Source of the DNA: Martensiomyces pterosporus
Lineage: Eukaryota > Kickxellomycota > Kickxellomycetes > Kickxellales > Kickxellaceae
Direction: 5' to 3'
DNA: 64,000 nt
NCBI GenBank assembly: GCA_025201845.1
Contig: MU603934.1
Location: 228,676 to 292,675 of the forward strand
In this document: positions 1,863-46,100 of the stretch, one piece after another
Layout: each line of letters opens with the position of its first letter
Position numbering within the stretch: position 1 is the first letter of the stretch
Notes under the pieces: generated by a model
What the model was told of the DNA's origin: nothing
Databases searched by the model: none
What the model saw: the letters and a program-made list of their open reading frames with translations, nothing else
Position numbers and translations under genes: made by a program

Positions 1863-4800
1863 ATGGACGCGTCTTCCAGGCAGCCAGGTCGAGGCCCACG
1901 TGCGCCGGGGGGTCCGCCGCAGCAGACTTTGCAGCTTGACCCTCGGTATGTCCCAGCCGAGCCCTCCGAAGCCGAAATCGACAAAAAAGCGCAAGAGTGG
2001 AGGGCACTCAATTCGAAGCGCTATGACACCAAAAGGCGCATGGGCTTTGCCGAGCAGCAAAAGTCCGACATGCCCCCAGAGCATCTGCGTAAAATTATCA
2101 AGGACCACGGCGACATGAGCGCACGCAAATACCGCCACGACAAGCGCGTTTACTTGGGTGCACTCAAGTATGTGCCCCATGCAGTGCTGAAGCTCCTCGA
2201 GAACATGCCTATGCCCTGGGAGCAAGTGCGCGAGGTGCCTGTTCTATACCACGTCACCGGCGCGATCACCTTTGTCAACGAGATCCCTTGGGTCATTGAG
2301 CCCGTTTACATGGCGCAGTGGGGAACGATGTGGATCATGATGCGCCGCGAAAAGCGCGACCGCAAGCACTTCAAGCGCATGCGCTTCCCGCCGTTCGACG
2401 ACGAAGAGCCGCCGCTGGATTATGGCGACAACCTGCTCGATATCGAGCCGCTTGAGGCCATTCAGATGGAGCTCGACGAAGACGACGACGCGCCCGTCTT
2501 CGACTGGCTCTACGACAGCAGGCCCCTTGCCGACGAGGACGAGGAGGACACCGAGGGCAGCGCCGTGGGCCGCCGTGTTAATGGGAGCACGTACCGCAAG
2601 TGGAGGCTCGACCTTCCGGTGATGGCCAACTTGCACCGTCTGGCGGGGCAGCTCCTCTCGGACCTGATCGACCCAAACTACTTCTACTTGTTCGACCTGA
2701 ACTCGTTTATCACGGCCAAGTGTCTGAACATGGCCATCCCAGGCGGCCCAAAGTTCGAGCCCATGTACAAGGACATCAACCCTGCGGACGAGGACTGGAA
2801 CGAGTTCAACGACATCAACAAGATCATCATCCGCCAGCCCATTCGAACCGAGTACAAGGTTGCATTCCCGCACCTCTACAACTCGCTGCCACGCAACGTG
2901 CGTCTGTCGGCCTACCACACGCCTGCAGTGCAGTATGTGCGTCCCGATGACCCCGATCTCCCGGCGTTCTACTTTGACCCGGTGATCAATCCAATTTCGT
3001 CGCGCAGCCTGGTATCCCAGTTCAAGGACGACGCGCGCTCGGTCGAGGACGAGATATTTGGCGATGCAGACGAAGACGACGAGTTTGTGCTGCCCGACAA
3101 CGCAAGGGCGTTCCTTGAGGACACGCCTCTCGAGACGGACAACACGGCCAATGGAATCGCGCTCTACTGGGCACCGCATCCATTCAACACGCGGTCGGGC
3201 CGCACTCGCCGTGCAGAGGATGTCCCGCTTGTCAGGGACTGGTACGTGGAGCACTGCCCACCGGGCATGCCAGTCAAGGTGCGTGTCTCGTACCAGAAGC
3301 TCTTGAAGAACTACGTTCTCAATGCCATCCACACAAGCCCGCCGCGCGCACAGCGCAAAAAGTACTTGTTCAGGCAGTTCAAGGCAACAAAGTTTTTCCA
3401 GACGACTGAGATCGACTGGGTCGAGGCTGGTTTGCAGGTTTGCCGCCAGGGCCACAACATGCTCAACCTGCTGATCCACCGCAAGAGCCTCAACTACCTG
3501 CACCTTGACTACAACTTCAACCTGAAGCCGGTTAAGACCCTGACGACCAAGGAGCGCAAGAAGAGCCGCTTTGGCAACGCGTTCCATCTATGCGTTGCTG
3601 CTGGCACACCAGTCAACCTCGGAACCGGCCTTGCACTGCCAATCGAGCTTGTGCGCGGCGGCACTTCTTTACAGTGCGTTGCTTACTCGGAGGGCTCGCT
3701 CACTAAGAGCATCGGCCACGAGGGACGTGCTGGTGGCGACGCCTTCCAGGTACACGCGGCGCCCCAGTCGTGTCTGCGCATCCGCTGCATTGACGGAACG
3801 GTTATTGCTGTCACGCCTACTCACCCCGTGCTTGCAGTGCTTGGCCATGCCGGAGCCACACTTGAGGATGCGTCGTACATTCCTGCTGGCGACCTGACCT
3901 CCGACCACTCTGTGGTGTGCTCGGCTCTGTACAGCGTGGTGGACTCCCCCGCCAGCGACTCTGCCTCCGCTTACCAGCTTCTGGACTGGAGCATGCCACG
4001 CGACCGCGACAAGATCCTTGCGTTTGCGCGCCTGCTTGGTGCAGTGCTGGCTAATGGCGCAGTCAGCGACACATCCAGCGAGCTGCTTATGCAGAGCGAG
4101 CTAGACATTCAGCAAGCACAGGCAGATATCTCGGTGCTTGTCGAAACCGCTGGCCAAGTGCGCCGTGCGGCTGGTCTGCCAAACACCTCCTCACCAGGAT
4201 CACGCTCTGTGCTCTCTTTGCCCAGCGAAGTGCACCAGATGTTTATCCGCGCTGGCTGTGCCCCAGATGCTGACTCGTCCCGTGCCCAGATCGCCCCCGC
4301 TGTCATTCGCACTGCCCCGATTTCCGTTCAGCGCGAGTTTTTGGCTGCATGGTGGGGCGGTAACGGCGGATCATGCAGGGTGGACAAGGATCTTTCTGCT
4401 CCGCTTGGCGACAATCCGATGGCGTACCTCAAGGTCAGCGCCGGCAAGGCCGATGTGGCTGTGCTCAAGGCATCCATCGAGTGGATGCAGACTGCGCTGC
4501 TCAGGCACTTTGGAGTTGATGCTGCGGTCGTGGAGTCTTTTGTAGCTACCTCGACGGGACACGCCGGCTTGGTCCCCTTTGACCCGGCCAAGCAGCAGGA
4601 CGCTGCCCCACCGACGCAGGTCTACTATCGCGCTGGTCTGCGCCTGGACGCCAAGTCGCTCGTGCCGTTTGCCGAGAAGGTCGGGGTTCGCTACAGCAGC
4701 CAGACCCAGGCCCGGCTCGACCTCATGCGCCGTTGGAGCAACTATGTCAGGCTGGCCAAGAGCGAGTCAGCCCAGCGTGTGCACAGCTTTGCGGAGTTTG

Positions 4801-7800
4801 CCGAGCTGATCTGCTTGCGGCCCACTGCTGCCGCTGGCGCGTGCGGCTCCCTGGCGACTGCTCTGCTGCTCCCCATTGCCAGCGTCGCTCCAGAGGCAGA
4901 AAAGCGCATGGTATACGACATATCTGTCCCCGAGCATGAGAACTTTGTCGCAGGCACCGTCGTCGTGCACAACTGCCGAGAGATTCTGCGCTTAACCAAG
5001 CTCATCGTTGATTCCCACGTGCAGTACCGCCTTGGCAACGTCGACGCGTTCCAGCTGGCCGACGGCCTCCAGTACCTGTTTGCCCACGTTGGCCAGCTTA
5101 CGGGCATGTACAGGTACAAGTACCGTCTCATGCGCCAGATCCGTGCATGCAAGGACCTGAAGCACCTGATCTACTACCGCTTCAACACCGGCCCGGTCGG
5201 CAAGGGCCCTGGCGTTGGCTTTTGGGCACCTGGCTGGCGCGTGTGGCTCTTCTTCCTTCGCGGCATCGTGCCTCTCCTCGAGCGCTGGCTAGGAAACCTG
5301 CTTGCCCGCCAGTTCGAGGGCCGTAACTCCAAGGGCGTCGTCAAGTCGCTTACCAAGCAGCGAGTTGACTCGCACTATGACTTGGAGCTGCGTGCAGCGG
5401 TCATGCACGACATCCTGGACATGATGCCCGAAGGCATTCGTGGCAACAAGAGCAAGGTTATTTTGCAGCACCTGTCGGAGGCATGGCGCTGCTACAAGGC
5501 CAACATCCCCTGGCAGGTGCCCGGCATGCCCAAGCCCATCGAGAACATGATCCTGCGCTATGTGAAGTCAAAGGCCGACTGGTGGACCTCTGTTGCGCAC
5601 TACAACCGCGAGCGTATCCGCCGCGGCGCTACTGTCGACAAGGCCATTGCTCGCCGAAACTGCGGCCGCCTCACCCGCCTCTGGCTGAAGGCAGAGCAAG
5701 AGCGCCAGCGCAACTACCTCAAGGACGGGCCCTATGTGAGCGCCGAGGAAGCCGTGGCCATCTACACGACAGCGGTGCACTGGCTCGAGTCCCGCCGCTT
5801 CTCGCCCATCCCATTCCCTCCGCTGTCGTACAAGCACGACCCAAAGCTGCTGATTCTTGCTCTGGAGCGCCTGCGCGAGGCGCACTCTGTGCAGGGCCAC
5901 CTCAATTCGTCGCAGCGCGAGGAGCTTGGTCTTATTGAGCAAGCGTTCGACAACCCGCACGAGGCGCTCAACCGCATCAAGCGGCTGCTTCTGACGCAGC
6001 GCGCCTTCAAGGAGGTGGGCATCGAGTTTATGGACATGTACTCGCACCTCATCCCCGTGTTCGATGTGGAGCCACTCGAGAAGATCACCGACGCGTACCT
6101 GGACCAGTATCTCTGGTATGAGGCTGACAAGCGCCGTCTGTGGGCTCCCTGGATCAAGCCTGCCGACTCGGAGCCTGCCCCTCTGCTGGTGTACAAGTGG
6201 TGCCAGGGCGTCAACAACCTGGACGGCGCCTGGGAGACGGACAGCGGCCAGTGCACTGTTATGCTCGAGGCCAAGCTTGCTCGTGTCTTTGAGAAGATCG
6301 ACCTCACGCTGCTGAACCGCCTGCTGCGCCTTATCCTCGACCACAACCTGGCTGACTACATGACTGCGAAAAACAACGTGGTTGTCAGCTTCAAGGACAT
6401 GAACCACGTCAACTCGTACGGCCTGATCCGAGGCCTGCAGTTCGCGCCCTTCATCTTCCAGTTCTACGGCATGATCATCGACTTGCTTATTCTGGGTCTG
6501 CAGCGTGCGTCGGAGATCGCTGGTGCTCCGAACATGCCCAACGACTTTTTGCAGTTCAAGGACGTCGAGACCGAGCGCAGGCACCCCATCCGGATGTACA
6601 TGCGCTATCTCGACCGCGTCTACATGCTCCTGCGCTTTGATGATGAGGAGGACTCGCGTGAGCTCATTCAGCGGTTCCTGACAGAGAACCCCGATCCCAA
6701 CAACGAGAACGTCGTTGGCTACAACAACAAGCGCTGCTGGCCGCGCGACAGCCGCATGCGCCTGATGAAGCACGACGTCAACCTCGGCCGCGCGGTCTTC
6801 TGGGACATCAAGAACCGCATCCCGCGCTCGCTGACCACAATCGAGTGGGACGACGAGGCCTCGTTCGTCAGCGTGTATTCGCGCGACAACCCGAACCTCC
6901 TCTTTGACATGGCTGGATTCGAGGTGCGCATTCTGCCAAAGGCCCGGCAGCTGACGGATGGCAGCTCCGTGCAGGATGGCTCGTGGGCGCTTATTGATGA
7001 CCGCACCAAGGAGCGCACGGCCACGGCGTTCCTGCGTGTGGACGATGCGTCGATACAGCGGTTCAACAACCGCATCCGCCAAATCCTCATGTCCTCTGGC
7101 AGCACGACGTTCACCAAGATTGCCAACAAGTTCAACACCGCGCTCATTGGGCTGATGACTTACTTCCGCGAGGCAGTCGTGCACACCCGCGAAATGCTCG
7201 ATCTTCTTGTTAAGGCCGAGACGAAGATCCAGGCGCGCATCATGTTGGGCTTGAACTCGAAGGACAGCAACCGCATGCCGCCAGTCATCTTCTACTGCTA
7301 CGGCGCAGGATTCCGCGTTCGCATGGCCGATGGATCGACAAAGGCCATTGAAAACATCGCTGTGGGCGACCGGGTCCTAGGCTCGGATGGCTCGCCACGC
7401 GACGTTGCCCACGTCATGTCCGGCACAGCCCCGCTGCACAGGGTTTCGCTGGCCAAGCCCAGGCCCAAGTCCAAGTGCGACGACGGCTACGTGCCGCTCA
7501 GCGAGGTTACGCCTGTGGTCAGGACAGCCAGCAGCATTTCGGTCCAGAGCATCTGCTCTGGTATATCCCATGACAGCGGCGACGTGTCGTCTCCTGCCAC
7601 GCCGCCCTCGGATGAGCTGCTGTACGACGACTCGTTCCTGTGCAATGAAAGGCATCGTCTGGCGATTCGTGTGGCTACAAGAAGCAACATCCACGAGAAA
7701 TCATGCCGTGTGGGCAGCTCTAGCTGGTCCGACGCGGGATCTTTTATCGCTGAATCGGTGTCTCTCAAATTCGACCAGCGCCTAGGGTTTAAGCGCCCGT

Positions 7801-10800
7801 ACAGCATCACGCAGGTCTTTGAGTACAACTCGAGCTTCTTTGGGCTTACCGATAACGGCAAGGCGATGGCGCGCAAGGAAGCCGACCTCCACGCACAGAA
7901 TATGGTCAAGATCGCTGTTGAGGCTGGTGCTCCGCCCGACTGCGTGTACGTCTGGCACGACAAGCAAAAGGCTGCTTACAGAGTCATCTCGAACAACTAC
8001 CCCAAGCACCTCACCCCGCCCTGCTGCTCATTCTACTATGGCTGTGTGCCGCTCAGCGCATCAAACCTTGTGTTCAACTCAAAGGAGGATGCGCGGTCGG
8101 CTGCTATTGCTGCTCAGCCCGAGCAGGACTCGTTCATCTGGACCGTCAGTGTGTGTGATTACTTGGAGTATGCCAAGCACATGCACTCACGCGGCGAGAC
8201 GCCTGTGCCTTGTGTCATGACGTACAGCGGCAGGGTTGCCAGCTGGCCTGTGGAGCACGGGTCTATGAGCAGGCTTACCGAGCTCGTTGCGCGTGCAGGC
8301 CAGCAGGCCGAGCCATCTGTGGAATCTGCTTCCGATTTCGGCTGGGCACTTGGCTGCTGGCTGTGTGGCGGCGATTCCTTTAACGCCAGCAACACCCACA
8401 ACGGCCAGCATGTGGGCGATTCAGTCCTGCAGCACTGGGCGGAGATTGTTGGCCGCCCCAGTGCAGAACAGCAGGCCACGGCGTTTGGCATGATTGTTGA
8501 GCTGCTCGCTTTGCCCAAATCCAGACATGTCAGCAGCCAGACACGCGATCTGCTTGTGAGCGAGCCATCAAAGATCAGGTCTGCGCTTTTGGCGGGCATG
8601 CTCGACGCCTGTGGAAAGGCTACTAGCGACAACGGGATTGCGATTGTGCAGCCTTTGGATAGCGAGTCTGTGCTGCATCTGGCGTATGAGGTCGCTAGGT
8701 CGCTAGGCCTGGAAACAGCTTCTCGCAAGAACGCGACCCACGGCTCGGTCATCATCCACGGCGACCTGAGCCCCATCCCAAGCATTACATCTGTCTGCCC
8801 AGGCAGCAGCAGTGCTAGCAGACACGATGGCCATGCCGGCGAGAAGCATGCGGCTGGGCACCACGCCTTGTTCGAGGTTTCCGCCGAGCCAGCGCTGGCC
8901 GGAGAGTACTATGGATTCCAGGTGGCCGACGGTCAGTCGCCTCTCTTCTGCCACAGCGACTTTGTTGTCGGCTCCAACTGCCCCAAGGAGTTGGGTGGTC
9001 TGGGCATGCTGTCGATGGGCCATGTCCTTATTCCCCAGTCAGATTTGCGGTGGTCGAAGCAGACCGAAACTGGCATCTCGCATTTCCGCGCTGGCATGTC
9101 GCATGAGGAGGGCCAGCTGATCCCCAACTTGTTCCGGTACATCCTGCCATGGGAGAGCGAGTTTGTCGATTCGCAGCGCGTCTGGGCAGAGTATGCGCTC
9201 AAGCGACAGGAGGCCAATGTGCAGAACCGCCGTCTGACGCTCGAGGACCTCGAGGACTCTTGGGATCGCGGCATCCCGCGCATCAACACGCTCTTCTCTA
9301 AGGACAGGCACACACTGGCCTACGACAAGGGATGGCGCATTCGCACCGAGTGGAAGCAGTACCAGCTTGCAAAGGCCAACCCGTTCTGGTGGACGCATGC
9401 TAAGCACGACGGAAAGCTGTGGCAGCTCAACAACTACCGCACGGATATGATCCAGGCCCTCGGCGGTGTTGAGTGTATCTTGGAGCACTCGCTGTTCCGC
9501 GGCACTTACTATCCTACCTGGGAGGGTCTTTTCTGGCAGCAGCAGTGCTTTGCTGCAGGCACGCAGGTCATGATGGGCGATGGGTCTATTCGCAGCGTTG
9601 AGGACATTGCCGAGGGTGATCTGCTGATGGGCGATGACTCCAAGCCGCGTGTGGTTAAGGAGCTTGTGCGTGGCCCAAGCGGCAACATGTACAGCCTCGA
9701 CATCCCTGCGTGGGGTGACAGCAGCGTTGTTGTCACTGGCAACCACATCCTTGTCCTGCGCCAGACCAACGCTGATCTGGGCATTGTGGAGTGCACGGTT
9801 GAAGAGTTTGTTGCAATGGCGCCAGAGGCACAGTCCGCTTATTCGATGGCGAGCACTCGGATCAAATACCCCGGCTCGAGCAAGCCACTCACACAGGACC
9901 CGCTCATCCTTGGAGCTCAGCTTGCTTGCCAGGCAGAAGGATGCTCGGACGATTTGTGCGATCGACTCGCTGCTGGTCTCGAAGGCTACGCCACGCACCC
10001 CGATGTTGCGGCTCTTCTCAAGGAGGGCGGCGCAGTGGACGGCACCACTAGCAAGGCGGACATTCTGGCGCGTGTCAAGGGAGCCCCTGATGAGGCGTGC
10101 GCGTGTGGACAGGCCGTTCCACTTGAATATCGCGCGCACCCTGACCCCCGCGTCCGTGCGCTTGTCTTTGTGGGCGCATCGCTTGCTCTTGGCAGCAGTG
10201 CGATCAGTGGCAGCGGACTACGCACCAGCATCCAAACCACCAGCAAGGCGTTTGCGGGCGAACTCCACGCACTGCTAATTGCACTCGGCCTTCCAGCGAC
10301 GCACAAGGTGTCTGGCGCTGCCCATGGGTCGTTCCACACTGTTTCGTACGAGAACGCACTGATCCAAGCACCGGATGCTGAGCGAGCAAGCGTTGTCTCT
10401 GCTGCCGCGTGTGCCGATTACCTGGTGAACAGCGCGTCCCAGTCGCTTAATCCGGTTGCGTTTACTGTGCACAAGGCGCCTTCAGAGCCGTACTTTGGCT
10501 TCAAGATCGAGGGGCCAAACCGCCGATTCTTGCTGGCGAATGGCCTGATCACGCATAATTCGGGCACATTCTCGGGTGCCATGGGGCAGCGCCAGCTTAC
10601 AAACGCCCAGCGCTCCGGTCTCAACCAGATCCCCAACCGTCGCTTCACGCTGTGGTGGTCGCCCACTATCAACCGCGCGAACGTGTACATCGGCTTCCAG
10701 GTGCAGCTCGATCTGACTGGAATCTTTATGCACGGTAAGCTGCCGACGCTGAAGATCTCGTATGTGAGCCTGTTCCGAAGCCACGCATGGCAAAAGTCGC

Positions 10801-13800
10801 ACGAGAGCCTCATTCTGGACCTGTGCCAGGTTCTGGATAACGAGCTCGAGCCCCTTCAGATCGAAACCGTGCAAAAGGAGGCCATCCACCCGCGCAAGTC
10901 ATACAAGATGTCGAGCTCTGCTGCGGACATCACATGCTTTGCTTCGTACAAGTGGCCAGTGTCGACACCTAGCTTGCTGACTGATTCGCGCGACCGCATG
11001 GATGCCGGCACTACGCAGAAATACTGGGTCGATGTGCAGCTTAGATGGGGAGACTTTGACTCGCACGACGTTGAGAGGTACACCAGAGCCAAGTTCCTTG
11101 ATTACACGACCGACAGCATGAGCATCTACCCATCGCCGACGGGTGTCATGATCGGCGTTGACCTGGCGTACAACATGTATGCTGCGTACGGCAACTGGAT
11201 CCCTGGCATGAAGCCGCTGATGCACCAGGCGATGGCCAAAATCATGAAGGCTAGCCCTGCGCTGTATGTCATCCGCGAGCGCATTCGCAAGGCGCTCCAG
11301 CTGTTCTCGTCGGAGCCCACGGAGAGCTACCTGAACAGCACCAACTATGCTGAGCTGTTCTCGCACCAGACCTGCTGGTTTATCGACGATACCAACGTGT
11401 ACCGCGTAACCGTGCAAAAGACGTTCGAAGGAAACTTGACGTGCTTCCCTGTTGAGGACCACCAGATCATGACGGAGCACGGGTTCTGGAGCCTGGAGCA
11501 GGTGCAGGAGCACTTCAAGCACCACGAGACGCTGAGTATCGCGTGCTACGTCGACAGTGTGCTGGAGTACCACCCCATCCGTTTGTCTGATGTCACCATT
11601 GACGATGGCGAGCACGATCTGGTGGAGATGGCGGACTCGGCTGGCCTATCGATCATGCCGACTGCAAACCACCGCATGCTGTTGCGTGTTGGCTCTACTG
11701 ATGCCAGCCGCCGGTGGACAGGCCGCGACGGCATGCCACCACCACTTGAGGTGCACACGGCTGGGTCTGTGCTGGATAAGGGCATGCACGACGACAGCGT
11801 GGTTGCGCAGTTTATGGCGCGCTTCTCGGAGGGCGAGGCGGTTGTGCACAGCGAGCTGCCGTTTGCAAAGTCCTTGGGCCTGCAGACCGATGACGAGATC
11901 GATGCCTTCCTCGAGGTGTACGGATACTGGCTCAGCAGCGGATGGCTTGATACCAGCAGCAAGGCTGTGGTGTTTGGATCCGCGAGCACAGCAGGCTATG
12001 GCTACCTAGACAGCCTGTTTGAGCGTCTTCGCCAGGTGCTCGCGCCACGCAGCGTGCACAAGAGGCGGCTCCAGCACCACATCGACGAGCCTGAATGGTG
12101 GTCGTTCTTTAGCGCCGAATATGCCAGCTGCAAGGTGTCCGACAAGCGCGGGCAGCTGCCGCAAGCGGAGACTGGTCTTTCTACTCCTCCGCCAGAGCCG
12201 ATCGTTCTCTCTGACAAGAGGCTCTGCTCCTGGGTGTGGCAGCATTTGGGCAAGCGCCGCCTGCGCCTTGTGGTCAGGGGCCTGTGCCCTGCCCGCAGCG
12301 AGCAAGAAGGCGAGATCCACACCTCATCGATGCAGCTCCGTGATGATCTGCAGCGTCTGCTCCTGCATGCCGGCTATTCGACGGTGTTCAGCGCTGATGA
12401 GACCAGGGATGCCGTCAGCTGGGGCGTGCGCTATGCCGAAGAAGAGCGGCTGGCCGAACCAAAGCTCTGCGTTAAGGAGGAATTTAAGCCCCTGCGTCGC
12501 AGCGGCACCGTATGGTGCGTCACCGTCCCGTCCAAGGGCCAGTACATCATGGTGCGCCGCGTGCACAGGTCTGACGACAGCGGCAACGTCCTCGCTGCAT
12601 CGCGGCCTGTCGTGGTGGGCAACACAAAGCCCATCAACGGTGCACTGACGATCCTCAATCCGCGCACAGGGCAGTGCTTCATCAAGGTCATTCACACGTC
12701 TGTGTGGGCTGGACAGAAGCGCCTTGGCCAGCTGGCAAAGTGGAAGACCGCTGAGGAGACGGTGGCGCTTGTTCGCTCGCTGCCTGTCGAGGAACAGCCG
12801 AACCAGCTCATTGTTTCGCGCAAGGGCATGCTGGATCCCCTCGAGGTGACGATGCTGGACTTCCCCAACATCACCATCCGCGGCAGCGAGATGCAGCTCC
12901 CTCTGCAGGCGCTGCTGAAGATCGAGAAGATTGGCGATATGATCCTGAAGGCCACTGAGCCCAAGATGAGCATGTGGTCGTGCTACGACAACTGGCTGTC
13001 AACCGTGTCGCCCTATACTGCGTTCTCGCGTCTTGTTCTTATCCTCCGGGCGCTGCACATCAACAACGAGCGCGCAAAGATCATTCTGCGCCCAGACAAG
13101 AACACGGTGACCGAGCCCCACCACCTGTGGCCCACTCTGACTGATGAGCAGTGGATCAAGGTGGAGAACCAGCTCAAGGACCTGATTCTGGCCGACTACG
13201 GCAAGAAGAACAATGTCAATGTGGCCTCGCTGACGGCGTCCGAGATCCGCGATGTGATCCTTGGCATGGAGATTCAGGCGCCCTCGCTGCAGCGCCAGCA
13301 GATTGCCGAGATTGAGAAGCAGGCGCGTGAGCAGTCGCAGCTCACTGCTGTCACGACAAAGACTCAGAACGTGCATGGAGACGAGATCGTCGTTACCACC
13401 ACGAGCAACTACGAGTCCCAGACATTCTCGTCAAAGACTGAGTGGCGCCTGCGTGCTATTGCTGCGCAGAACCTGCCCTTGCGAACAAAGCACCTCTATG
13501 TGACCTCGGACGATGTGAGCGACACAGCCTATACCTATGTCCTGCCGAAGAATCTGCTGAGGCGGTTCATCACGATCGCTGATCCCCGCACGCAGATTGC
13601 CGGCTACTTGTACGGCGCGTCGCCGCCTGGGAATGACCAGGTCAAGGAGATCCGCTCGGTAGTGATGGTGCCGCAGTGGGCCACTCACCAGCAAGTGCAC
13701 TTGCCTGACGCCATGCCCAACCACGAGTACCTGCGCGACCTGGAGCCGCTGGGCTGGATTCATACGATGCCCAACGAGCTGTCCCACTTGGCGCCGCAGG

Positions 13801-14255
13801 ACGTCACCATCCACTCGCGCATCCTTGCGCGCACCGCCGACAAGCCCAAGGTGCGCTGGGACGGCGAAAAGACCATTGCGCTTACCTGCGCATTTACGCC
13901 TGGATCGTGCTCGCTGACCGCGTACAAGCTGACGCCTGCGGGGTTCGAGTGGGGCAAGGATAACAGGGACATGGCGTCCGCCAGCCCCGAGGGATTCACG
14001 CCTGCGTGCTTCGAGCGGGTCCAGATGCTGCTTTCGGACAGGTTCATGGGATTCTTCATGGTGCCCGACGACAACGGTGTCTGGAACTATAATTTCATGG
14101 GGCCGGCGCACCGTGCGGACATGTCGTACGGACTGCAGCTGGATGTGCCCCGCGAGTTCTACGACGAAGCGCACCGGCCTAGCCACTTTATGAACTTTGC
14201 GGACATGGAAGGCGCCGCAGCGGACGAGGTTGACCTTGAAGACGAGTTCGCCTAA
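1863..14255 (+). CDS. PRP8: Prp8, U5 snRNP spliceosome core protein, with four inteins
   Basis: Central scaffold of the spliceosomal active site, which holds U5 and U6 snRNA and the splice sites. One frame of 4130 codons runs from the ATG at 1863 ([17 protein letters not shown]) to TAA at 14253, with no spliceosomal intron. The host protein aligns with Prp8 from end to end: PRO8NT from about residue 40, PROCN, the reverse-transcriptase-like core, the U5- and U6-contact regions, the RNase H-like domain ([14 protein letters not shown]) and the C-terminal MPN/Jab domain. Four in-frame inteins interrupt it at residues 577-1037, 1812-2372, 2562-2899 and 3194-3587. Removing them leaves 2376 residues, close to the family's usual 2300-2400. 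Extein blocks are 576, 774, 189, 294 and 543 residues. Functional Prp8 should therefore need four protein-splicing events. The extein flanking intein 3 departs from the otherwise conserved sequence (QQQ before, [12 protein letters not shown] after). An AATAAA-like signal follows the stop near 14294. Confidence 0.98.
3591..4973 (+). mobile_element. PRP8 intein 1 (461 aa), endonuclease remnant
   Basis: In-frame protein intron within the PROCN region, between extein residues FHL and CREILRL. The host reads [14 protein letters not shown] after excision, which matches uninterrupted Prp8. Splicing residues: Cys1 ([10 protein letters not shown]), block B T75-P-T-H78, block [15 protein letters not shown], and C-terminal VVVHN with the usual His-Asn pair before Cys+1. 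The sequence suggests full splicing competence. A LAGLIDADG endonuclease domain lies between. Its two motifs read [10 protein letters not shown] (148-157) and [11 protein letters not shown] (250-260), so both catalytic aspartate positions are Asn (155 and 258). Cleavage activity is therefore unlikely. Boundaries come from the extein alignment and are exact to the codon. Confidence 0.96.
7296..8978 (+). mobile_element. PRP8 intein 2 (561 aa), atypical C-terminal junction
   Basis: The largest of the four. It sits between extein VIFY and [15 protein letters not shown], at the end of the reverse-transcriptase-like core. Cys1 begins [20 protein letters not shown]. Block B is N117-E-R-H120 instead of the usual T-x-x-H. 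The C-terminus is DFVVGSN, so the penultimate residue is Ser instead of His. The +1 residue is Cys, where uninterrupted Prp8 generally has Thr (FYTPKELGG). LAGLIDADG motifs read [11 protein letters not shown] (351-361) and [12 protein letters not shown] (431-442). At the catalytic positions they have Gly358 and Cys439, so the endonuclease is probably dead. A long Ser-rich insertion lies between blocks A and B (about residues 60-110). Splicing is expected, because the host needs it, but its chemistry is less canonical than in inteins 1 and 3. Confidence 0.95.
9546..10559 (+). mobile_element. PRP8 intein 3 (338 aa) at the Cryptococcus-type PRP8-a site
   Basis: Lies between extein GLFWQQQ and SGTFSGAM, corresponding to GLFWEKA|SGFEE in uninterrupted Prp8. 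To my knowledge this is the classic fungal site first described in Cryptococcus. Cys1 begins [20 protein letters not shown]. Block B is T64-G-N-H67. The end is NGLITHN followed by Ser+1, so splicing residues are canonical. It is the shortest copy and most of the endonuclease is eroded. The helix [20 protein letters not shown] (228-247) still has the family look. The motif positions read ILGAQLACQ (121-129) and FVGASLALG (208-216), with no acidic residue at either catalytic position. It appears to be decaying towards a mini-intein. Confidence 0.96.
11442..12623 (+). mobile_element. PRP8 intein 4 (394 aa), separate lineage, in the RNase H-like domain
   Basis: Lies between extein FEGNLT and TKPINGAL, in the RNase H-like domain hairpin. 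Its N-terminus [20 protein letters not shown] is of a different type from inteins 1-3. Block B is T74-A-N-H77. Block [17 protein letters not shown] is followed by a C-terminus RPVVVGN, where penultimate Gly replaces His, and Thr is +1. Gly-Asn ends occur in this CFP-type class, so this is probably native. LAGLIDADG motifs read [11 protein letters not shown] (159-169) and [10 protein letters not shown] (277-286), with Ser166 and Arg285 at the catalytic positions. The downstream helix [20 protein letters not shown] is well preserved. Endonuclease activity is not expected; splicing is. Confidence 0.95.
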
Positions 14256-26097: not shown

Positions 26098-26702
26098 TGT
26101 TCGGCCAAAAGCGAGTGCAGAGCAAATTATATAGACAGGTGGATGTGTATTTGCGGAAAGCAAAACGAAGGGGAAAAACAGATATTAGACAGGAGCAGAG
26201 GCAGCCATGCAGAGAAGAGGGCGATGCAGCAGCAGCAGAGCAAGCCCAATCGCGTCCCGCCAGCCCCGACGTAGGAAAGGGAAAGAGACTTTGGCGGAGG
26301 GACACACAAAAAGCCTCCCATCGGGGAGGCGAGAGGTGGCCGTTCTGAACTTGGCGCAAGGCCAAGTGTGCGTGTGCCTGGTTCTAAATATAAGGCGGCT
26401 GTAGGCTGCCAGCCGGCCCTCGCCTCTTGGGTCCGCCAGAGCCGCCCACCGCTTTTGCTGGGCGCACCGCCGTGAGCTGGGTGCGCCCAGCGTCGTCGGC
26501 TCGCTCAGTGGTGCTGATCCCGGTTTGGCTGGGCAAGTGGGTCCGCACACGCTGCCAAAGCTTGCTGTTTTCTTCAAGCCAACTACCTCTGCTCCCTACT
26601 TTCTCTTGTGACAGCCTCATTTTCTTTCTCATTCGCAGCCACCCACGCCTACTTTGCTTGCATCCGCACTCGCACCTCTCATTCCACCCTACACAGCGCA
26701 GC

Positions 26703-28769
26703 ATGAGTCTAGCAGTGACGGTCTATCGGCAGCGGTTCTGGCTGATACCGCTCCTAGTCATTGGCAGCTTGTTTCTCTTCCTCGCGCACTCGCCGCGCAG
26801 CAAAGAGTCCGGGGTGTCATACAGAGACTACATGCGGGCAAGGGATAGCAGCACTGCGGCTGCCGCTTCCACTGCCGCTGCTCTTGGCCAGCACAGCAGC
26901 CAGCGGCAGCCAGCCAGCAGTGGGTTCTCGAGCGACCCAGCCGAGTTCTTTGTGCAAGCAACACTGCAGAAGAACCGGATGGTAGTTTTCAGCAAGTCAA
27001 CATGTCCCCACTGCATGGCCACAAAATCCGTTCTCGACCGGTACCGCGCGAAACACGGCCTCAATTATACAGTCGTGGAGGTTGACCTGCGCAACGACAG
27101 GGATGACATCGAGCGGGCACTCCGCAGCCTCTACGAGCGAACGACCTTCCCAAGCGTGTTTATCGATGGCCAGTGTATTGGCGGAAACGACGACATCCAG
27201 CGACTCGAAACGCTCGATACTCTGGCCCAAGTGCTGGCCAAGAAAGGGCTGCTGAATGGGGATGTTGAGGACAGCGCACGCAAGTTTATTTCGGACACCA
27301 TCAAGAACTACCAGGTTGCCCTGTTCACGATCAAGGGTGCCGACGACAAGGAGACCAGTGACCACCTGGACAAGTTCGCTGCCAAGCACAACCTTACCCA
27401 TACGACCATTCGCCTCGACGAGAAGCCCAGCTTCCTGGCACTTCGGGAGCGGCTGTTCAAGATATCGGGCAAGGATGGATTCCCTATCACGTACATTGGC
27501 AAGCTTCCGTGGGGCGGCAAGGCGTCTGACATTCCGTACTTTATGAAGAACGGCGTGATCGAGGAGCGCATGGAGTACATGGGCTTGGTGACCAAAACAG
27601 CTGCTGGTGCGGCTCCAACAGCCAGGACGGATATCCGCAACGAGGAACTTCCCGATTTCCCACAGGCTGCACGCTTGACAGGCAAGGACTTTGTCAGCGA
27701 GTTTGTGGCCCATTTCGACGTAGCTGTGTTTGGCAAGGCCTCGTGCCCGTACTCGAAGGCGCTCGCGTCGCTGCTGGAAGATTACGGCAGGCTGTATGGC
27801 CTCAAGTACCACTGGGTTGATGTCGAGCAGCGCAACGACAGCGACCAGATCAAGGCAGAGCTGAAGCGCATCAGCGGCCTGGACACATTCCCCAACATGT
27901 TTGTCAAGCACACGTCTCTTGGTGGCAACGACAGCGTCTACGCAAAGCACGTCGCTGGTGAGCTGCAGGAGCTTTTGGACGAGTCCGCATTGCTGGATGC
28001 CGAGAAGGTGAAGAGCCACGAGGCAAAGATCTACGAGCAAGTGCGCAACCAGGTCAGGGACAACCATGTCGTCGTGTATGGAAAGTCGTTCGATCGCGGC
28101 ACTGCCCGCGCAGTGCAGATATTCCAGCGGTACAAGGACAGGTACCACGCCAAGTACACCTTTGAGAAGATCGACGGGCGCGCGGATCACCAGCAGGTCA
28201 CAAAGGCCATTGAACGGCTCGCCGGCAAAGCTGATCTCCCAGCCGTGTTTGTCGGCGGCAAGGAAGTGGGTGGCATCGACGGGTTGCAGAGATTGTATGA
28301 TGGCGGCGAGCTCAAGAGCATGCTCATCAAGGCCAAGCTCATTGAGGCTGGTGCCGAGCAGGATGATATCGCTGTGCAGCCACTGCCTCCCACGAAGGGT
28401 CCGAGCAGTGGTGGTAAGGATGAGAAGGAAGACCCTGCTCAGACGCCAGCGGAGCGCAAGATACGCCAACTGATTAGGCGCAACCGCGTGATGGTCTTCT
28501 CAAAGACGTACTGCCCGTACTCCAAGCGCGCAAAGGCACTGCTGGCAAAGTACAAGAGCGACCGTGGACTGGATTTCGCCGTTCTTGAGGCTGACTTGGA
28601 GGCGGATCCGATGGCCGTCAAGGCTGCGCTCAACAGGATCTCTGGCCGTGCTACCTTCCCAAACGTCTTTGTTGACGGAAGGAGCATCGGCGGCAGCGAC
28701 GACATCCAGCTGCTGCACAAGAACGGGGAGCTGGCGGCTTTGCTGCAGAAGAAAAGCCTGATCGTCTAG
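26703..28769 (+). CDS. Membrane-anchored protein with five tandem glutaredoxin domains
   Basis: A 688-residue single-exon protein. The frame is open upstream, but the first ATG is 26703. The N-terminus MSLAVTVYRQRFWLIPLLVI leads into one hydrophobic span (about 12-29), so it is a likely type II signal anchor like yeast Grx6/Grx7 of the early secretory pathway. Five thioredoxin-fold glutaredoxin units follow. Unit 1 has active site C101-P-H-C104 (dithiol). Unit 2 (about 195-295) has no cysteine pair. Unit 3 has C348-P-Y-S351 (monothiol). Unit 4 has KSFD at 461-464 in place of the active site. Unit 5 has C604-P-Y-S607. Units 1, 3 and 5 keep the TFP turn and a GG(N/S)D glutathione-binding motif. 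Known Grx6/7 proteins have one unit, so this array is unusual. Substrate and redox partner are unknown. Confidence 0.93.
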   Translation: MSLAVTVYRQRFWLIPLLVIGSLFLFLAHSPRSKESGVSYRDYMRARDSSTAAAASTAAALGQHSSQRQPASSGFSSDPAEFFVQATLQKNRMVVFSKSTCPHCMATKSVLDRYRAKHGLNYTVVEVDLRNDRDDIERALRSLYERTTFPSVFIDGQCIGGNDDIQRLETLDTLAQVLAKKGLLNGDVEDSARKFISDTIKNYQVALFTIKGADDKETSDHLDKFAAKHNLTHTTIRLDEKPSFLALRERLFKISGKDGFPITYIGKLPWGGKASDIPYFMKNGVIEERMEYMGLVTKTAAGAAPTARTDIRNEELPDFPQAARLTGKDFVSEFVAHFDVAVFGKASCPYSKALASLLEDYGRLYGLKYHWVDVEQRNDSDQIKAELKRISGLDTFPNMFVKHTSLGGNDSVYAKHVAGELQELLDESALLDAEKVKSHEAKIYEQVRNQVRDNHVVVYGKSFDRGTARAVQIFQRYKDRYHAKYTFEKIDGRADHQQVTKAIERLAGKADLPAVFVGGKEVGGIDGLQRLYDGGELKSMLIKAKLIEAGAEQDDIAVQPLPPTKGPSSGGKDEKEDPAQTPAERKIRQLIRRNRVMVFSKTYCPYSKRAKALLAKYKSDRGLDFAVLEADLEADPMAVKAALNRISGRATFPNVFVDGRSIGGSDDIQLLHKNGELAALLQKKSLIV

Positions 28770-40184: not shown

Positions 40185-43100
40185 ATGGACGGCCGTGTCG
40201 ACCAACCCTCCTTCGACGAGCTGCCTTTTGTTTACCGGGCGCGGATTCGCGATATCCAGCAGGAGTTTATGGATGGAGACATCACGCAAAAGGGATTCGA
40301 CAAGAGGCTGGCAAAGATTATGCAGGAGTACCGCTCAAACAGCCACGCCGAGGTTCCCTCCTCTGCAGCGCACCCGCCTCCCAGTCCATACCAAGACTCG
40401 CCTGCCCGCCAAGTGCGGTATGCTGACATGCAGGACGACAGCTCTCAGTCGTATTCGCCCGTATCGGGTGTGTCGCGCTCGAGCTCAGTTGCTGGAGCCA
40501 GAAATGGCGCAGGCAGACCCAACTATGACGCTCGAAAGTCAACTGTGCTGGGGTTTAGAAAGCCCGGAATCAACTTTGATGCGCTGTTGGACGACTTTGA
40601 GGACGAAGACGACAATGAGGATAGCGACGGCGTTGGGTATTCGCAGCTGTCGCGCAGCGCCTTTGCGCAACCCGTTGCTGGCAGCAGAGGCTTGCCGTCC
40701 ATGAGGTCGCCACCGCTGGATAATAGCAGGGGCTCGCCATTCCAGCTGTCGCCGCCACCTGTGCCCAAGGTGCCTGGCGCCTCTCGCACGCCATACAATG
40801 TCGGCAGACGCGTTGTCGACGACACTGTGGGCAGCTCCAACAATGCTAGTAGTGGCTGGGCGGCCATGGACCAAGTGAGCGACGACGACGACGAGTTTGG
40901 CGGCGACATCAACTCGGGCCGCGCTCTGCATGTTCTAAACGACATCATGGATCCCTATGGCGCACAATCGTCACCGAATAACCAGGAGCTGTACTCGGAT
41001 AGCGCCAGCAGCAACGGAATGCTAGACGATCTCGACAGCCTTGGGCCCAGCGAATTCAACCCTGACATTATCACTGAGAGCGCCATGTCAGGCTCACGTG
41101 CGGCGCTTGCAGACAACGACTATGACCAATCTGCCTTGGCTGTTCCTGGCGAGGACGACAGTGACGGCGACAATGTGTCGGAAACCTCATCGGTTGAGGT
41201 GAAGCGTATGAACTCGCTCCTGTACCCGCGCAATGGTAGAGGCCGTGGTGGCCGTGCGGCTAGAGGGGACGACTTGCGGCGCCAGATATCGAAGCAGCAA
41301 AGTCACCAGGATTATCCCATGGCAGCCTCGCCATCGCCATTCCTTCCAGTTGCTGCCACCACTGAAGATAAGCCATACACTGCGGATGTTGTTGCATTTG
41401 ACGCCAAGAGCCACAGCGGCAGCGGCATTCCTGAGAGTGGTGGTGGGCTTGGTGGCATCTCTTCGCCATACGAGGAGGAAACCAGCAAGGCTTCTGCTGC
41501 TGCTCAGCCGGCGACTTCACAATCGCCTCGGGACTCGAACAGCCCTGGGTTTGATGGCAATATTGAAGCAGCACTCAAATCCCGCGCACTGCTGGCAAAG
41601 CAGGCACAAACCGCTGGTGATTCGAGTCCCATCAGCCGCGGTACACCTCCAAGTGCCAGCATGCTCACACCCGTCACTCCTGGTACAGCCCAGTTCAGCA
41701 AGGCCAATTCGGAGACCGCCGTCAGTGCACCATTGCCTCCACAAGCATTGTCAGTTACCACGGCCAGCAATGGAATAGCTGACTACAGCGAAGATGTGCC
41801 GCTTGTGTCTGCCCCGCAAAGCGCAGGCGATGCTAGCAACAGCACCTCTCCCAACCCTGTGGACTCGAGGAAGCGCAACTCCATATATAGCGCCACAACT
41901 GACACTGGCCCCGCAACCAGCACCAGTGGCGGTGGATCGATCACGCTTGAAGACCTGGCTCTTGCTACGAGCTCGTCCTCAGAGCAGCCCGAACACGCGT
42001 TTGCGCAGCAGACTCAGGCTGCGCATTCGTCGGCCACTAATAGTGCTGCTGCTAGCGCCAGTCCTAACAACGAGGTCAGTGAGTACCACGCGGCTTCGCA
42101 AACCGCCTCGCCTGTGTACCCGCCACTGCCAGCAGACTCTCCCCGTAGCCCTGTTGTCGCAGAGAGCACGGAGCCCGTTGGCCAACTAGCGGATGCGCTA
42201 GAACAAGGTGCGGCGATATCCGGTAAGCCGGCCATCACTATCCAAATGGACAGCGTCGCACAGCAGGGACTGGCTTCTCCTTACGAAAGAAGCGAGCACG
42301 CCTCTAGCGTCGGTAGTCCTACGCGTATGCAGCGCTCTAGCATTCAAAGCGCGGCATTTGGAGGCTTGGCAATTGCAGGGAGCAGCGCTCATGCGTCGCC
42401 AATAGGCGATGTCATGCCGCTTGCTAGCATGCCAGCCACGCCTCGCAACCATGGGTCCCGCACCAGCAGCACAGGCAACGGGGTGATGGGCTACCAGCCA
42501 CTGGCTGACACGCAGGAGGCTGCTGATATGGACAGCCACGACTTTGAGTTCCCTGTGTATGGCGAACCCATTACGAGATCAGGGCGGATTGATGATTCAG
42601 ACAACGATGATCAGCTGTCAGCACACGAGAACTTTGATGACTTGCCTCTGGGAAGCGACTCGCACCCACAGCCGCAGCCGAGCGTGGCAAACAGGGTTGC
42701 GCGCAGACCTACTCATAGCGCTCGCTCTGACCGCGGTCCTCTGAATGCTGCTGCTGGCGGAGCTGGCCGAGCGTCTTATTATGCGCCCGAGTCGGAGCTC
42801 GAGGTTCCTGCCAACTTTGACGTGCCCGTGCCTGTTTCGGGGGTGGGCTCTGCAGCAGTGCCGATACCGGCTGATAGCGAGGGCCATTCTGCGGCTGCGG
42901 CGGCGGCGGCTGCTGGTGCGGCGACACTCAGCGCTGGCCTTGCTTCGGGGCTTGCAGCAGGGTACACCAACCACAATGGCAGCGACACAGCGCTGGCCTT
43001 GCTTCGGGGCTTGCAGCAGGGTACACCAACCACAATGGCAGCGACAATGGGTTTGACCTCGAGGTTGACAGCTCTGACCCGCGCGTGGTTGGCACAAACT

Positions 43101-46100
43101 ACCCAGCCCAATATCCCAGCAGCAGCAGCAGACCCTCCGCCACTGCCAGAGATGCAAGCCTCTCTTTGCCCAACACTGCACCCCTAGAAGGGCCGTCTGT
43201 TGTTATTGCTGGCTTGAGCCCAGCACCGGCTTCCGCTCCTCTTTTAGACACACCTATGGCCAACCTGCCGCCAGCCAGCAACGAGTACGAGCAGCAGGAT
43301 TACGGGCAGTGGCAGCCCGGCACCTACGATGCCAGCACGACCCAGCCATCGGCTCTTTCTAGCATTGGCGCCATCGTGTATCCGCGCGAGATCCCCGAGG
43401 ATGTGAGCTCGCACCAGCTAAAGCAGCTGATGGCTCTCCACCAGAATCTGCCGTCGGTCCTTCGGCACAGGGCAGCTACCACACCGAACGCCATTGCCTA
43501 TACATGCATTGACACAAAGGGCAAGGAGATCGGGTCCTGGACCTGGTCAGGGCTTCACACGCGTGCCATCCATGTCGTCCAGCTGCTGAGGCAAAAGGGC
43601 GTATCAGTGTGGGGCGACCGAGTTGCGCTGGTGTACCGCAAATACGAGATGCTCGAGTTTGTAGGCAGTCTGTTTGGCTGCTTCTACGCGGGCCTGTGTG
43701 CAGTGCCCATCGTCGCTGGAGACTCGTACGCCGAGCTCGTGCATGTCTTGAACTCGACCAGCGCTGTTTTGGTCCTCACATCGGAGCTGAACGTCAAGTC
43801 TCTGAACAAGGATCTGAACCAGAACAACGTTGGCCCCGGGTGGCCCACTGACGTTGCGTGGGTGCGCACAGATAATCTTGGCGGGTGCACTCTGTCGTCT
43901 ATTGGCGCGCAGAGCCCGTCGAGCCAGTACCACCCGCGGCAGGCTGCCGACAACTACTACAGCAGCAAGACGGACACCAAGATTGACGACATTGGGCCCG
44001 ACGACATTGCCTATATCGAGTTTAGCAAGAGCCCCAATGGCGAGCTCAAGGGAGTGCAGGTTACGCACGGCGCCATCATGACGCAGTGCGCTGGGTGGAT
44101 GATGAGCACTGGAATGCTTGGCGTTGGCCGCAAGTACAAGCACCGTGTCGAGCTCGAGCAGGATGAGCCTGCTTCAGCCAGCTACTACTCCCAGGCGATT
44201 GTCGACCCCAACAACGAGCTGGGTGCAGACAGCCCTCCCTCGACGCCAAGCTCTGCGCTGGGGACGCCGGCCGTGGCTGGGCTCGGCAAGTACAGCAGCA
44301 CGGCGGCGTCCAGCCCTGTTGCTGAGCAAGAGCACCACCATGGGTCGTTTGGCAAGAAGTGGGGATCCTCATCGGGGTTCCTGGGCCGCTTGCGCAACGT
44401 TGGGTCGCTGCCTAGGATACGCAAGGGCTCGAGAGCCAAGGACCACCCGGTCCAGAGCGGAGGCAGCCCTAGGATGTCGACGACCAGTGTCAGGAACAGC
44501 ATGGCCAGCCAGACGGTCGCTGACGGCAGGGCACGCGCTGCGTCCAGCACATCGGCGTCTCAGCAGCAGCGCCTGCAGCAGGGCGACGATGGCTTGGGCT
44601 TGTCTCCAGGGTCCATCCAGAAGAACCCTACGCGCCTGTCTGCAGTCTCGCGAGCCACTACCATCAACAACGCTGGCGGCAGCTTGGACGCTGGCAACGA
44701 CTCGGCATCGCGGCCGCGGGGCGCAAGCAGCACTAGCCCGCCCGCAGCCAAGGACGTTGTTGTGTTTTATATCGAGCCAAGGCAGCACTTTGGGCTTGTC
44801 TACGGAATCCTTGGCGGGTGCTATGGCGGCCACCAGTCTGTCTACACCAGCAGCGCCCTGTGCGATATCCCGGGCGCGTATATCAACCTGCTGACTCGCT
44901 ATTGGGCCACAGTTGCAGTGGGCGACTACACGGGGCTCCAGTCGGTGCTCTCTGCAGCCACCGACGAGCCTAGCCAGATCACAGACTATAGCAAGAAGAC
45001 CCCGCCAAACCTGGCGTCGCTGCGCCTTTGCTTGGTCGACACGCTGTTTATCGACCCTGTGTTCCACACGACATTCAACCGGAACGTGCTCCACCCCTTC
45101 GGCTGCCCGTACCAGAGCATTGCGGATGCGGAGGGGCACCCGGTAATGACGGCGGTGTGCACCCTGGCGGAGCACGGCAGCGTCCTGATGGCCATGCGCG
45201 ACTGCCTGTCGAGCTGCACGCCGCCCAATGTCGACGACGGCCCGGGCATGGGCTACGAGTTTGTGCTTGACCGCGAGGCGTTTAAGGAGAACCGCGTGGT
45301 GATACTGCCGGACGAGCGGAACGAGGCAGAGGTCGACAGAATAGGCACTGTGCGCTACCAGTCGTTTGGGTTCCCCGCACTCAACGCAACGATCGCAGTC
45401 GTTGACCCCGAGACGCGCGAGCTCTGCGCCCCCGACTCCATCGGCGAGCTCTGGATCGCCTCGCCGTCGCTGGGGAGCGGATTCTGGGGGCTCCCGAAGC
45501 TTACAAGCAGCATATTTGCTGCGCGCTTCACGTACAGCGTCGAGCAGGACGTTGAGCTTGTGAGCAGCAGCACCTATCTTCGCACGGGGCTGATGGGTGC
45601 GCTGGTGCTGGGCCGGGTGCTGGTGTTTGGGTTCTACGAGGACCGTATCCGCACGCTGACGATCGAGCCATCGCCGGATGTCCCTGTGGGCACGCCTGCT
45701 TGGTACATCGAGCCTACGCTGGGCTTCCATTACGCAGGCGATATCAACAGCACCATCAGGCGCTACCTGCCGCAAATCTCAGAGTGCACTGCATTCGAGA
45801 TGTTTGCCAACGAGACGCACTTCCCAGTCATTGCTGCCGAGGTGCGGCACAACTCGGGCATGTTCTCGACTATTGCCGAGGAGGTGTATGGCGTCTTGCG
45901 CAACAGGCACGGGCTCTACGCCTATGCTGTGGCGCTGTGCCCGCCAAACACGCTCCCGCGCGCATTCCAGTACGGCAAGCGCACAGTCAACGCGCAGCTC
46001 TGCCGGCACCAGTTCGAGAGCGGCAAGATCAACTGCCTGTACGTCAAGATTTCGACGGACAACCTGTTCATGAACCTGCCGCCGCCTGCGTCGACTCTGC

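Follow-up and report, generated by a model that had tools for sequence, protein, structure and literature searches.

Excerpts of a 2019 survey (PMC6805012) describe about a hundred inteins of the spliceosomal protein Prp8 at seven insertion sites, named a to g, the fungal ones lying nearly all at site a. Prp8 inteins are discussed, in titles and abstracts, as antifungal targets and possible sensors. Three inteins in a single fungal genome are given as an example in extracts of PMC5784728, and extracts of PMC1635734 cite four inteins in one bacterial gene, the ribonucleotide reductase of Trichodesmium. Closer to the fungi considered here, excerpts of PMC8778642, which touches on both inteins and early-diverging fungi, do not mention Prp8, and PMC12292046, which brings together Coemansia and inteins, concerns MutS genes. 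Among the open-licence papers listed by our searches (preprints excluded), judged by title and the start of the abstract, there is no account of multi-intein Prp8s in Kickxellomycotina, although one may exist elsewhere. Here we describe the PRP8 gene of Martensiomyces pterosporus (Kickxellales), located in a window of 64,000 nucleotides (the whole stretch of DNA that was analyzed; contig MU603934.1, positions 228,676 to 292,675), which very probably holds four inteins.

The PRP8 gene and its four insertions

The PRP8 open reading frame runs from ATG to stop in a single frame of 12.4 kb. Prp8 domains are detected by Pfam, and a PDB search with the 4130-residue product retrieves Prp8 chains of several eukaryotes. 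Four insertions (residues 577–1037, 1812–2372, 2562–2899 and 3194–3587) make up 1754 of the 4130 codons, or 42.5%, and once they are taken out, an intact protein of 2376 residues is left that matches Prp8 over its full length. PROCN, the U5-2 and U6 small nuclear RNA (snRNA)-binding domains and domain IV are each split into two matched stretches. A first-pass annotation of this DNA had given insertion lengths of 461, 561, 338 and 394 in a Prp8 of 4130 residues, a continuous 2376-residue Prp8 upon their removal and a share of 'fifteen of every 35 codons'; direct reading reproduced these numbers exactly, with Pfam and PDB matches along the length of the protein. The features are as follows (window coordinates; a slash marks the bond).

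1863–14255, + strand: PRP8 open reading frame; precursor of 4130 residues, composed of 2376 extein residues and four inteins; intronless frame (Pfam, PDB)
3591–4973, + strand: intein 1, residues 577–1037 (461 aa), extein site 576 (AFHL/CREI), interrupts PROCN
3813–3824, + strand: intein 1 block B, TPTH (TxxH), from alignment and invariant residues
4032–4058, + strand: intein 1 endonuclease motif 1, LLGAVLANG, with Asn in place of the acid (the Geranomyces intein of this site has Asp)
4338–4367, + strand: intein 1 endonuclease motif 2 (WWGGNG), again with Asn in place of the acid (Geranomyces has Asp), from alignment
7296–8978, + strand: intein 2, residues 1812–2372 (561 aa), extein site 1350 (VIFY/CPKE), penultimate Ser instead of His
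7644–7655, + strand: intein 2 block B, NERH (NxxH), from alignment and invariant residues
8346–8372, + strand: intein 2 endonuclease motif 1, ALGCWLCGG, without the acid, from alignment and pattern
8589–8615, + strand: intein 2 endonuclease motif 2, LAGMLDACG, without the acid, from alignment and pattern
9546–10559, + strand: intein 3, residues 2562–2899 (338 aa), extein site 1539 (FWQQQ/SGTF), which is Prp8-a, the usual site in fungi
9735–9746, + strand: intein 3 block B, TxNH, invariant T64, N66 and H67
11442–12623, + strand: intein 4, residues 3194–3587 (394 aa), extein site 1833 (GNLT/TKPI), interrupts PRP8 domain IV; Gly as penultimate residue; member of a divergent class
11661–11672, + strand: intein 4 block B, TANH (TxxH), from alignment and invariant residues
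11916–11942, + strand: intein 4 endonuclease motif 1, VYGYWLSSG, without the acid, from alignment and pattern
12273–12299, + strand: intein 4 endonuclease motif 2, VRGLCPARS, without the acid, from alignment and pattern

Each insertion is in frame, at a conserved Prp8 site for which empty homologues are known, and its removal leaves the host protein intact. All four have a nucleophile at residue 1, a terminal Asn and Cys, Ser or Thr at the +1 position; this pattern, too, had been noted before, and the residues read C/N/C, C/N/C, C/N/S and C/N/T for inteins 1 to 4. The block B His, within TxxH or NxxH, is present in all of them, at intein residues 78, 120, 67 and 77. Above their cut-offs, TIGR01443 recognizes the Hint fold in intein 1 and PF05203 recognizes it in inteins 2 (E=3.2e-16) and 3 (E=1.9e-20), with matches below cut-off to PF14890 for intein 1 (E=1.6e-7) and, slightly, to PF05204 for intein 2 (E=4e-4). 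Intein 3 also matches Cryptococcus Prp8 inteins in PDB (best E=6.9e-6). For intein 4, the Hint fold comes from a predicted structural model, which comprises an intein fold plus an endonuclease fold. Taken together, we assign a probability of about 93% to the reading that PRP8 holds four genuine inteins of class 1 layout in one intact gene, with decayed endonucleases and presumably functional splicing.

None of the four has the acid in both motifs, as an active LAGLIDADG homing endonuclease does: inteins 1, 2 and 4 have other residues in place of the acids, and a pattern search recognized no motif pair in intein 3, which fits the 'ex-selfish' label of the first-pass annotation. Among all Prp8 inteins that we mapped, an intact acid pair was found in 5 of 229 by one crude pattern that undercounts, since it missed the Geranomyces intein at site 576, in which both acids are visible in the alignment. 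With the catalytic acids lost where they can be located, inteins 1, 2 and 4 should no longer home. The splicing ends of every intein are better conserved than the middle, as expected if selection acts on splicing and not on homing. From these features, the four look like old relics rather than active parasites.

Prp8 inteins across the Kickxellomycotina

To place this gene among its homologs, 141 proteins were gathered, and 134 Prp8s remained after removal of seven non-Prp8 proteins before site mapping. The sample is non-random: a query with the N-terminal extein, which contains no intein and was used with a length window admitting intein-free Prp8, contributed the best 120 of 2673 Prp8s, while queries with inteins 1 and 4 favor intein carriers. 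Insertions of at least 100 residues were mapped, and 229 were assigned to 21 sites. The fit of their ends required C, S or A first, N last and C, S or T next, which means that those residues cannot be counted as independent evidence; the four inteins of M. pterosporus were placed by direct reading, outside this fit. Nine insertions were excluded, six without acceptable ends (P0008, P0014, P0032, P0033, P0072, P0131) and three with ends off-site (P0025, P0026, P0075). Two with poorly fitted ends (P0061, P0076) are both absent from the intein tree (227 inteins) and one of them from the count of penultimate residues (228). For partial records and P0075, the intein counts are minimum values. The Kickxellomycotina set includes M. 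pterosporus Prp8 and one further protein placed by the tree.

In M. pterosporus extein coordinates, the sites are 182, 576, 634, 647, 748, 801, 906, 960, 1298, 1323, 1350, 1456, 1490, 1539, 1578, 1627, 1659, 1706, 1798, 1833 and 1909, and 18 of the 21 are present in the 38 Kickxellomycotina rows. As many as 26 of the 28 near-complete Kickxellomycotina Prp8s carry inteins, between three and ten each (three in four proteins, four in nine, five in six, six in three, eight in one, nine in two and ten in one). Mycoemilia scoparia has the maximum, ten inteins in a protein of 6458 residues, and nine each occur in Dimargaris verticillata and D. xerosporica. In contrast, the 93 other near-complete Prp8s contain none (53), one (34), two (4) or three (2). 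The earlier statement that fungal PRP8 usually carries none or one thus describes 87 of these 93 proteins but fails in the subphylum of M. pterosporus itself, and the rarity that it implied for four inteins is wrong at the group level. Four Prp8 inteins are ordinary for this group, and intein accumulation runs throughout the sampled Kickxellomycotina, whose essential PRP8 thus bears an exceptional burden of a parasite type that is itself well known. All four sites of M. pterosporus, whose comparison with other Prp8s had been proposed at the outset, are occupied in records of other species. The search with intein 1 found 19 Prp8s, of which 17 are named Coemansia and one is that of Acytostelium. 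According to the taxonomy database, Mycoemilia, Dimargaris, Tieghemiomyces and Smittium belong to Kickxellomycotina and Syncephalis to Zoopagomycotina; no intein was found in Syncephalis Prp8. Two Prp8s that lie outside Kickxellomycotina in the tree (P0027 and P0033) have 6 and 7 assigned inteins and hold three of the five with an intact acid pair by pattern.

The two Kickxellomycotina without full inteins, Linderina pennispora (P0042) and Coemansia mojavensis (P0043), have stubs at the usual sites (3–13 residues where inserted), and their gene models seem to have excised inteins as false introns. This suggests that gene-finding pipelines can hide inteins in this way.

Insertion sites were not found to be specially conserved: of 5000 random sets, 351 reached the conservation of the 21 sites and 2504 that of the four M. 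pterosporus sites. At the +1 position, outgroup Prp8s have mostly Cys, Ser or Thr at 13 of the 21 sites, compared with 10.9% of all positions (binomial P 2.7e-8); the remaining eight would have required a change of host residue. Among 26 Kickxellales rows, the residue at site 1578 is Ser in all 17 occupied proteins and Ala in five empty ones, including M. pterosporus, while P0008 (Cys), the sixth row scored as empty, has an insertion that is truncated. On a simple reading, the intein and the +1 residue would come and go together at this site, like replacement by an empty allele. At site 906, all six occupied proteins have Cys, and the empty ones have Ala (8), Thr (7) or Cys (1); the last, in C. 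javaensis, is possibly an intein scar. The empty proteins at site 1539 comprise three of a single clade with Val and seven with Ser.

In the extein tree, M. pterosporus Prp8 sits among Coemansia and Kickxella, and by distance its nearest extein is that of Kickxella alabastrina (a partial record) in the three comparisons that include it. In the intein tree, inteins group for the most part according to site, and sites 576, 906, 960, 1298, 1323, 1490, 1578, 1659 and 1909 form pure clades. Other sites are less clean, with 14 of 17 inteins together at site 748, 24 of 26 at 1350, 4 of 8 at 1456, 4 of 7 at 1627 and 5 of 6 at 647. Site 1539 has 56 of its 59 in one clade, inside which four site-1456 inteins are nested; site 634 has its ten in a group that also takes in three inteins of other sites (support 0.475), and the 17 of site 1833 include one site-647 intein. 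Intein and extein trees share 16 of 23, 14 of 22, 15 of 31 and 8 of 14 splits at the four M. pterosporus sites, far above shuffled labels, as well as 5 of 13 at site 748 and 7 of 14 at site 1578. Inteins 1–3 mostly follow the host tree, and intein 4 less clearly so. Within Coemansia, considering near-complete rows, the sister pair C. interrupta and C. erecta is alone in having no intein at site 1350, and several lineages lack one at site 1539; this patchy occupancy suggests intein losses.

The penultimate residue varies with the site. His precedes the final Asn in inteins 1 and 3, as in 174 of 228 Prp8 inteins, while intein 2 ends in Gly-Ser-Asn and intein 4 has Gly. Ser or Ala is found in 21 of the 26 inteins at site 1350, with His in four (three from Dimargaris) and Gly in one; all seven inteins at site 906 have Arg, and all 24 at sites 647, 1706 and 1833 have Gly. 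A penultimate His is not known to be obligatory for inteins.

The class of intein 4 stands apart. In profile comparisons, the site 1833/647 class showed no similarity to five other site classes (probabilities of 0.2–6.4%; three extein controls, 0.1–0.4%), whereas site 1539 matched sites 1350 and 576 with 99.7% and 86.8%. By sequence, the only PDB match of the class is an unrelated chain (E=0.13), PHROGs gave no match better than E=0.1, and one of nine members hit Pfam Hint_2 (E=0.11). Curated libraries miss this divergent Gly-Asn class. Relatives occur within a DNA polymerase, dynein heavy chains, an RNA polymerase subunit, a Chrysophaeum protein and one viral contig. The DNA polymerase B record (P0024) has matches at three places, two of them with LYGxWLGDG, and the dynein heavy chains are P0034, P0035, P0037 and P0038, two of them named Entophlyctis helioformis. 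The viral contig (L024, 3001–3891, + strand) encodes a protein with a 297-residue intein of this class that has its endonuclease acids (TDG, AEG) and a Gly-Asn end; it matches 204 phage records and aligns with intein 4 over 112 residues (27%, single-pair E=4e-8). A viral source of the inteins was considered and rejected: as single-sequence queries, inteins 4 and 1 (the two that were used) found no relative in viral contigs, the class profile found none in prokaryote genomes and matched one viral contig, and intein 4 alone had no match at E<=1 among phage records.

Predicted splicing dependence and rival explanations

If the inserts are inteins, the 12.4 kb PRP8 frame would be translated whole. 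At each insert, Cys-1 would attack, the ester would be passed to the +1 Cys, Ser or Thr, the terminal Asn would cyclize and Prp8 would be ligated. If no insert-free PRP8 copy exists, and none was found, every spliceosome would need four protein-splicing reactions. Assuming equal efficiencies, 90% mature Prp8 requires 97.4% per intein with four inteins and 98.95% with ten, which speaks for efficient splicing of each one during normal growth. From an essential gene only exact removal would allow exit, most easily through replacement by an intein-free allele, and this may be why the inserts persist.

Several observations sit uneasily with four functional, vertically inherited relics. Inteins 2 and 4 do not have the usual His, and at sites 906 and 647, both empty in M. 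pterosporus, only one of three splits each is shared, within the shuffle range. The nearest relative of intein 4 is a Spiromyces intein, while the nearest extein is that of Kickxella, so that horizontal transfer of intein 4 is possible. Third-position GC content (GC3) is 0.64–0.76 in the inteins and 0.80 in the extein, and the codon distance of inteins 1–3 is equal to or larger than the largest of 200 extein blocks, with intein 4 in range; such codon usage fits relaxed selection, and a foreign origin as well.

Could the inserts instead leave the mRNA as introns, the open frame being coincidental? The Linderina and C. mojavensis gene models appear to treat most of every intein as intron, but they leave stubs such as CIAAGTPVIVHN within Prp8 and hence look like annotation errors. 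Moreover, Kickxellales show no variation in the block B His at any of the four sites, and open frames of 1014–1683 nt are improbable in non-coding sequence (1.8e-5 to 1.3e-8 per insert). The intron reading was rejected because no GT-AG, GC-AG or AT-AC choice excises any of the four exactly, and we consider it extremely improbable. The chance that we are looking at an assembly artefact or a dead second copy is extremely small: in the genome (17.4 Mb, 216 contigs), a single PRP8 locus was found and each of the four inteins turned up only once, the same sites are filled in other species, and the 2376-residue extein is intact. It is also very unlikely that the inteins are active mobile elements spreading now in the population. 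Patchy occupancy in Coemansia, the affinity of intein 4 to an intein of a more distant relative and the motif 1 acid retained by some of its class relatives in other genes (e.g. LYGYWLGDG) would agree with mobility, but the acid pair is intact in none of the M. pterosporus inteins and rare by our undercounting pattern among Prp8 inteins generally, and the trees are partly to mostly congruent.

Just as unlikely is the proposal that at least one intein, 2 or 4 first, is splicing-dead and retained in Prp8 as a permanent domain. The missing penultimate His in these two would be in line with it; however, neither the block B His nor the end residues (the latter in part a requirement of the fit) vary across Kickxellales, the insertions interrupt PROCN, the U5-2 and U6 snRNA-binding domains and domain IV, and most mapped Prp8 inteins lie near the active center according to excerpts of PMC6805012. 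Maintenance of the inteins as switches coupling spliceosome supply to stress also seems very unlikely. Copper and zinc block the Cryptococcus Prp8 intein (PMC6805012, in excerpt), whose site is shared with intein 3 only, and splicing parts are retained while endonuclease parts decay. Yet intein sets vary among close relatives with apparent losses, conservation is also expected if the unspliced precursor is simply harmful, and 90% mature Prp8 would demand the per-intein efficiencies calculated above. The sensitivity to redox state, zinc or temperature suggested in the first-pass annotation would be an extrapolation from other inteins such as the Cryptococcus one. A broader conjecture, which we offer as speculative and unlikely, is that Kickxellomycotina Prp8 is an intein sink (at least 18 sites, up to ten per protein), in which inteins with dead endonucleases do not spread and are hard to lose, while their splicing domains now serve together as a stress-sensitive, multi-part gate on the maturation of Prp8, a serial protein-splicing control of the spliceosome.

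Other inteins and comparison with known systems

The M. pterosporus genome contains at least seven inteins in four genes, namely PRP8 and three others; intein family searches would miss genes broken by introns. The motif listing shows no intact acid pair in the three further inteins, which are listed here together with other genes of the window.

L014 2602–7269 (contig C25), + strand: eIF5B-like gene, 416-residue intein in the P-loop (GHVDTGK/C...HN/T)
L015 2051–5083 (contig C46), − strand: VMA1 (V-ATPase subunit A), 430-residue intein (VYVG/C...HN/CGERG), Pfam Hom_end with the motif acids replaced
L023 2037–5489 (contig C24), − strand: AAA/M41 (YME1/FtsH-like) protease, 400-residue intein, Ser-1
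Window 26427–28769, + strand: frame of 780 residues with three glutaredoxin stretches (Pfam)
Window 40185–43187 and 43085–48325, both + strand: overlapping frames with DMAP-binding, Mug62-like and DIP2-like AMP-binding domains, possibly a single intron-containing gene

Intein 3 is, by its sequence, a Prp8-a intein: it shares the bond, the +1 Ser and the common ancestry of the fungal inteins of that site (Cryptococcus neoformans and others), falling in the clade with 56 of the 59 site-a inteins. However, most carriers have that one alone, whereas M. pterosporus fills three further sites. Intein 1 occupies the identical bond (AFHL/CREI) as the intein of Acytostelium subglobosum Prp8, and the 26 inteins there form one clade; it would accordingly be a Prp8-g intein, the letter g being inferred from the description in excerpts of PMC6805012. 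Acytostelium has two Prp8 inteins in the alignment, compared with four in M. pterosporus. The 18 sites and three to ten inteins per protein in Kickxellomycotina exceed the seven-site picture in the excerpts of that survey. Intein 4 resembles phage-type Gly-Asn inteins (L024; mycobacteriophage and Gordonia phage records) through its pairwise match with L024, but differs in having no direct phage match and in having lost its endonuclease acids.

Kickxellomycotina Prp8 lets one ask how repeated protein splicing is tolerated by an essential protein, by what route dead inteins disappear and whether intein and host +1 residue travel together. On the last point, there is a parallel in haloarchaeal MCM, which, according to excerpts of PMC10643990, also has several intein sites in one gene (four); at MCM-d, invaded alleles have Ser at +1 and empty alleles mainly Pro, as Ser and Ala alternate at Prp8 site 1578. 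Unlike the haloarchaeal inteins, those of M. pterosporus Prp8 look dead. Trichodesmium ribonucleotide reductase, as cited in extracts of PMC1635734, likewise has four inteins in one gene, but that gene is bacterial and, by the cited title, carries three group II introns, whereas M. pterosporus PRP8 is a nuclear spliceosome gene.

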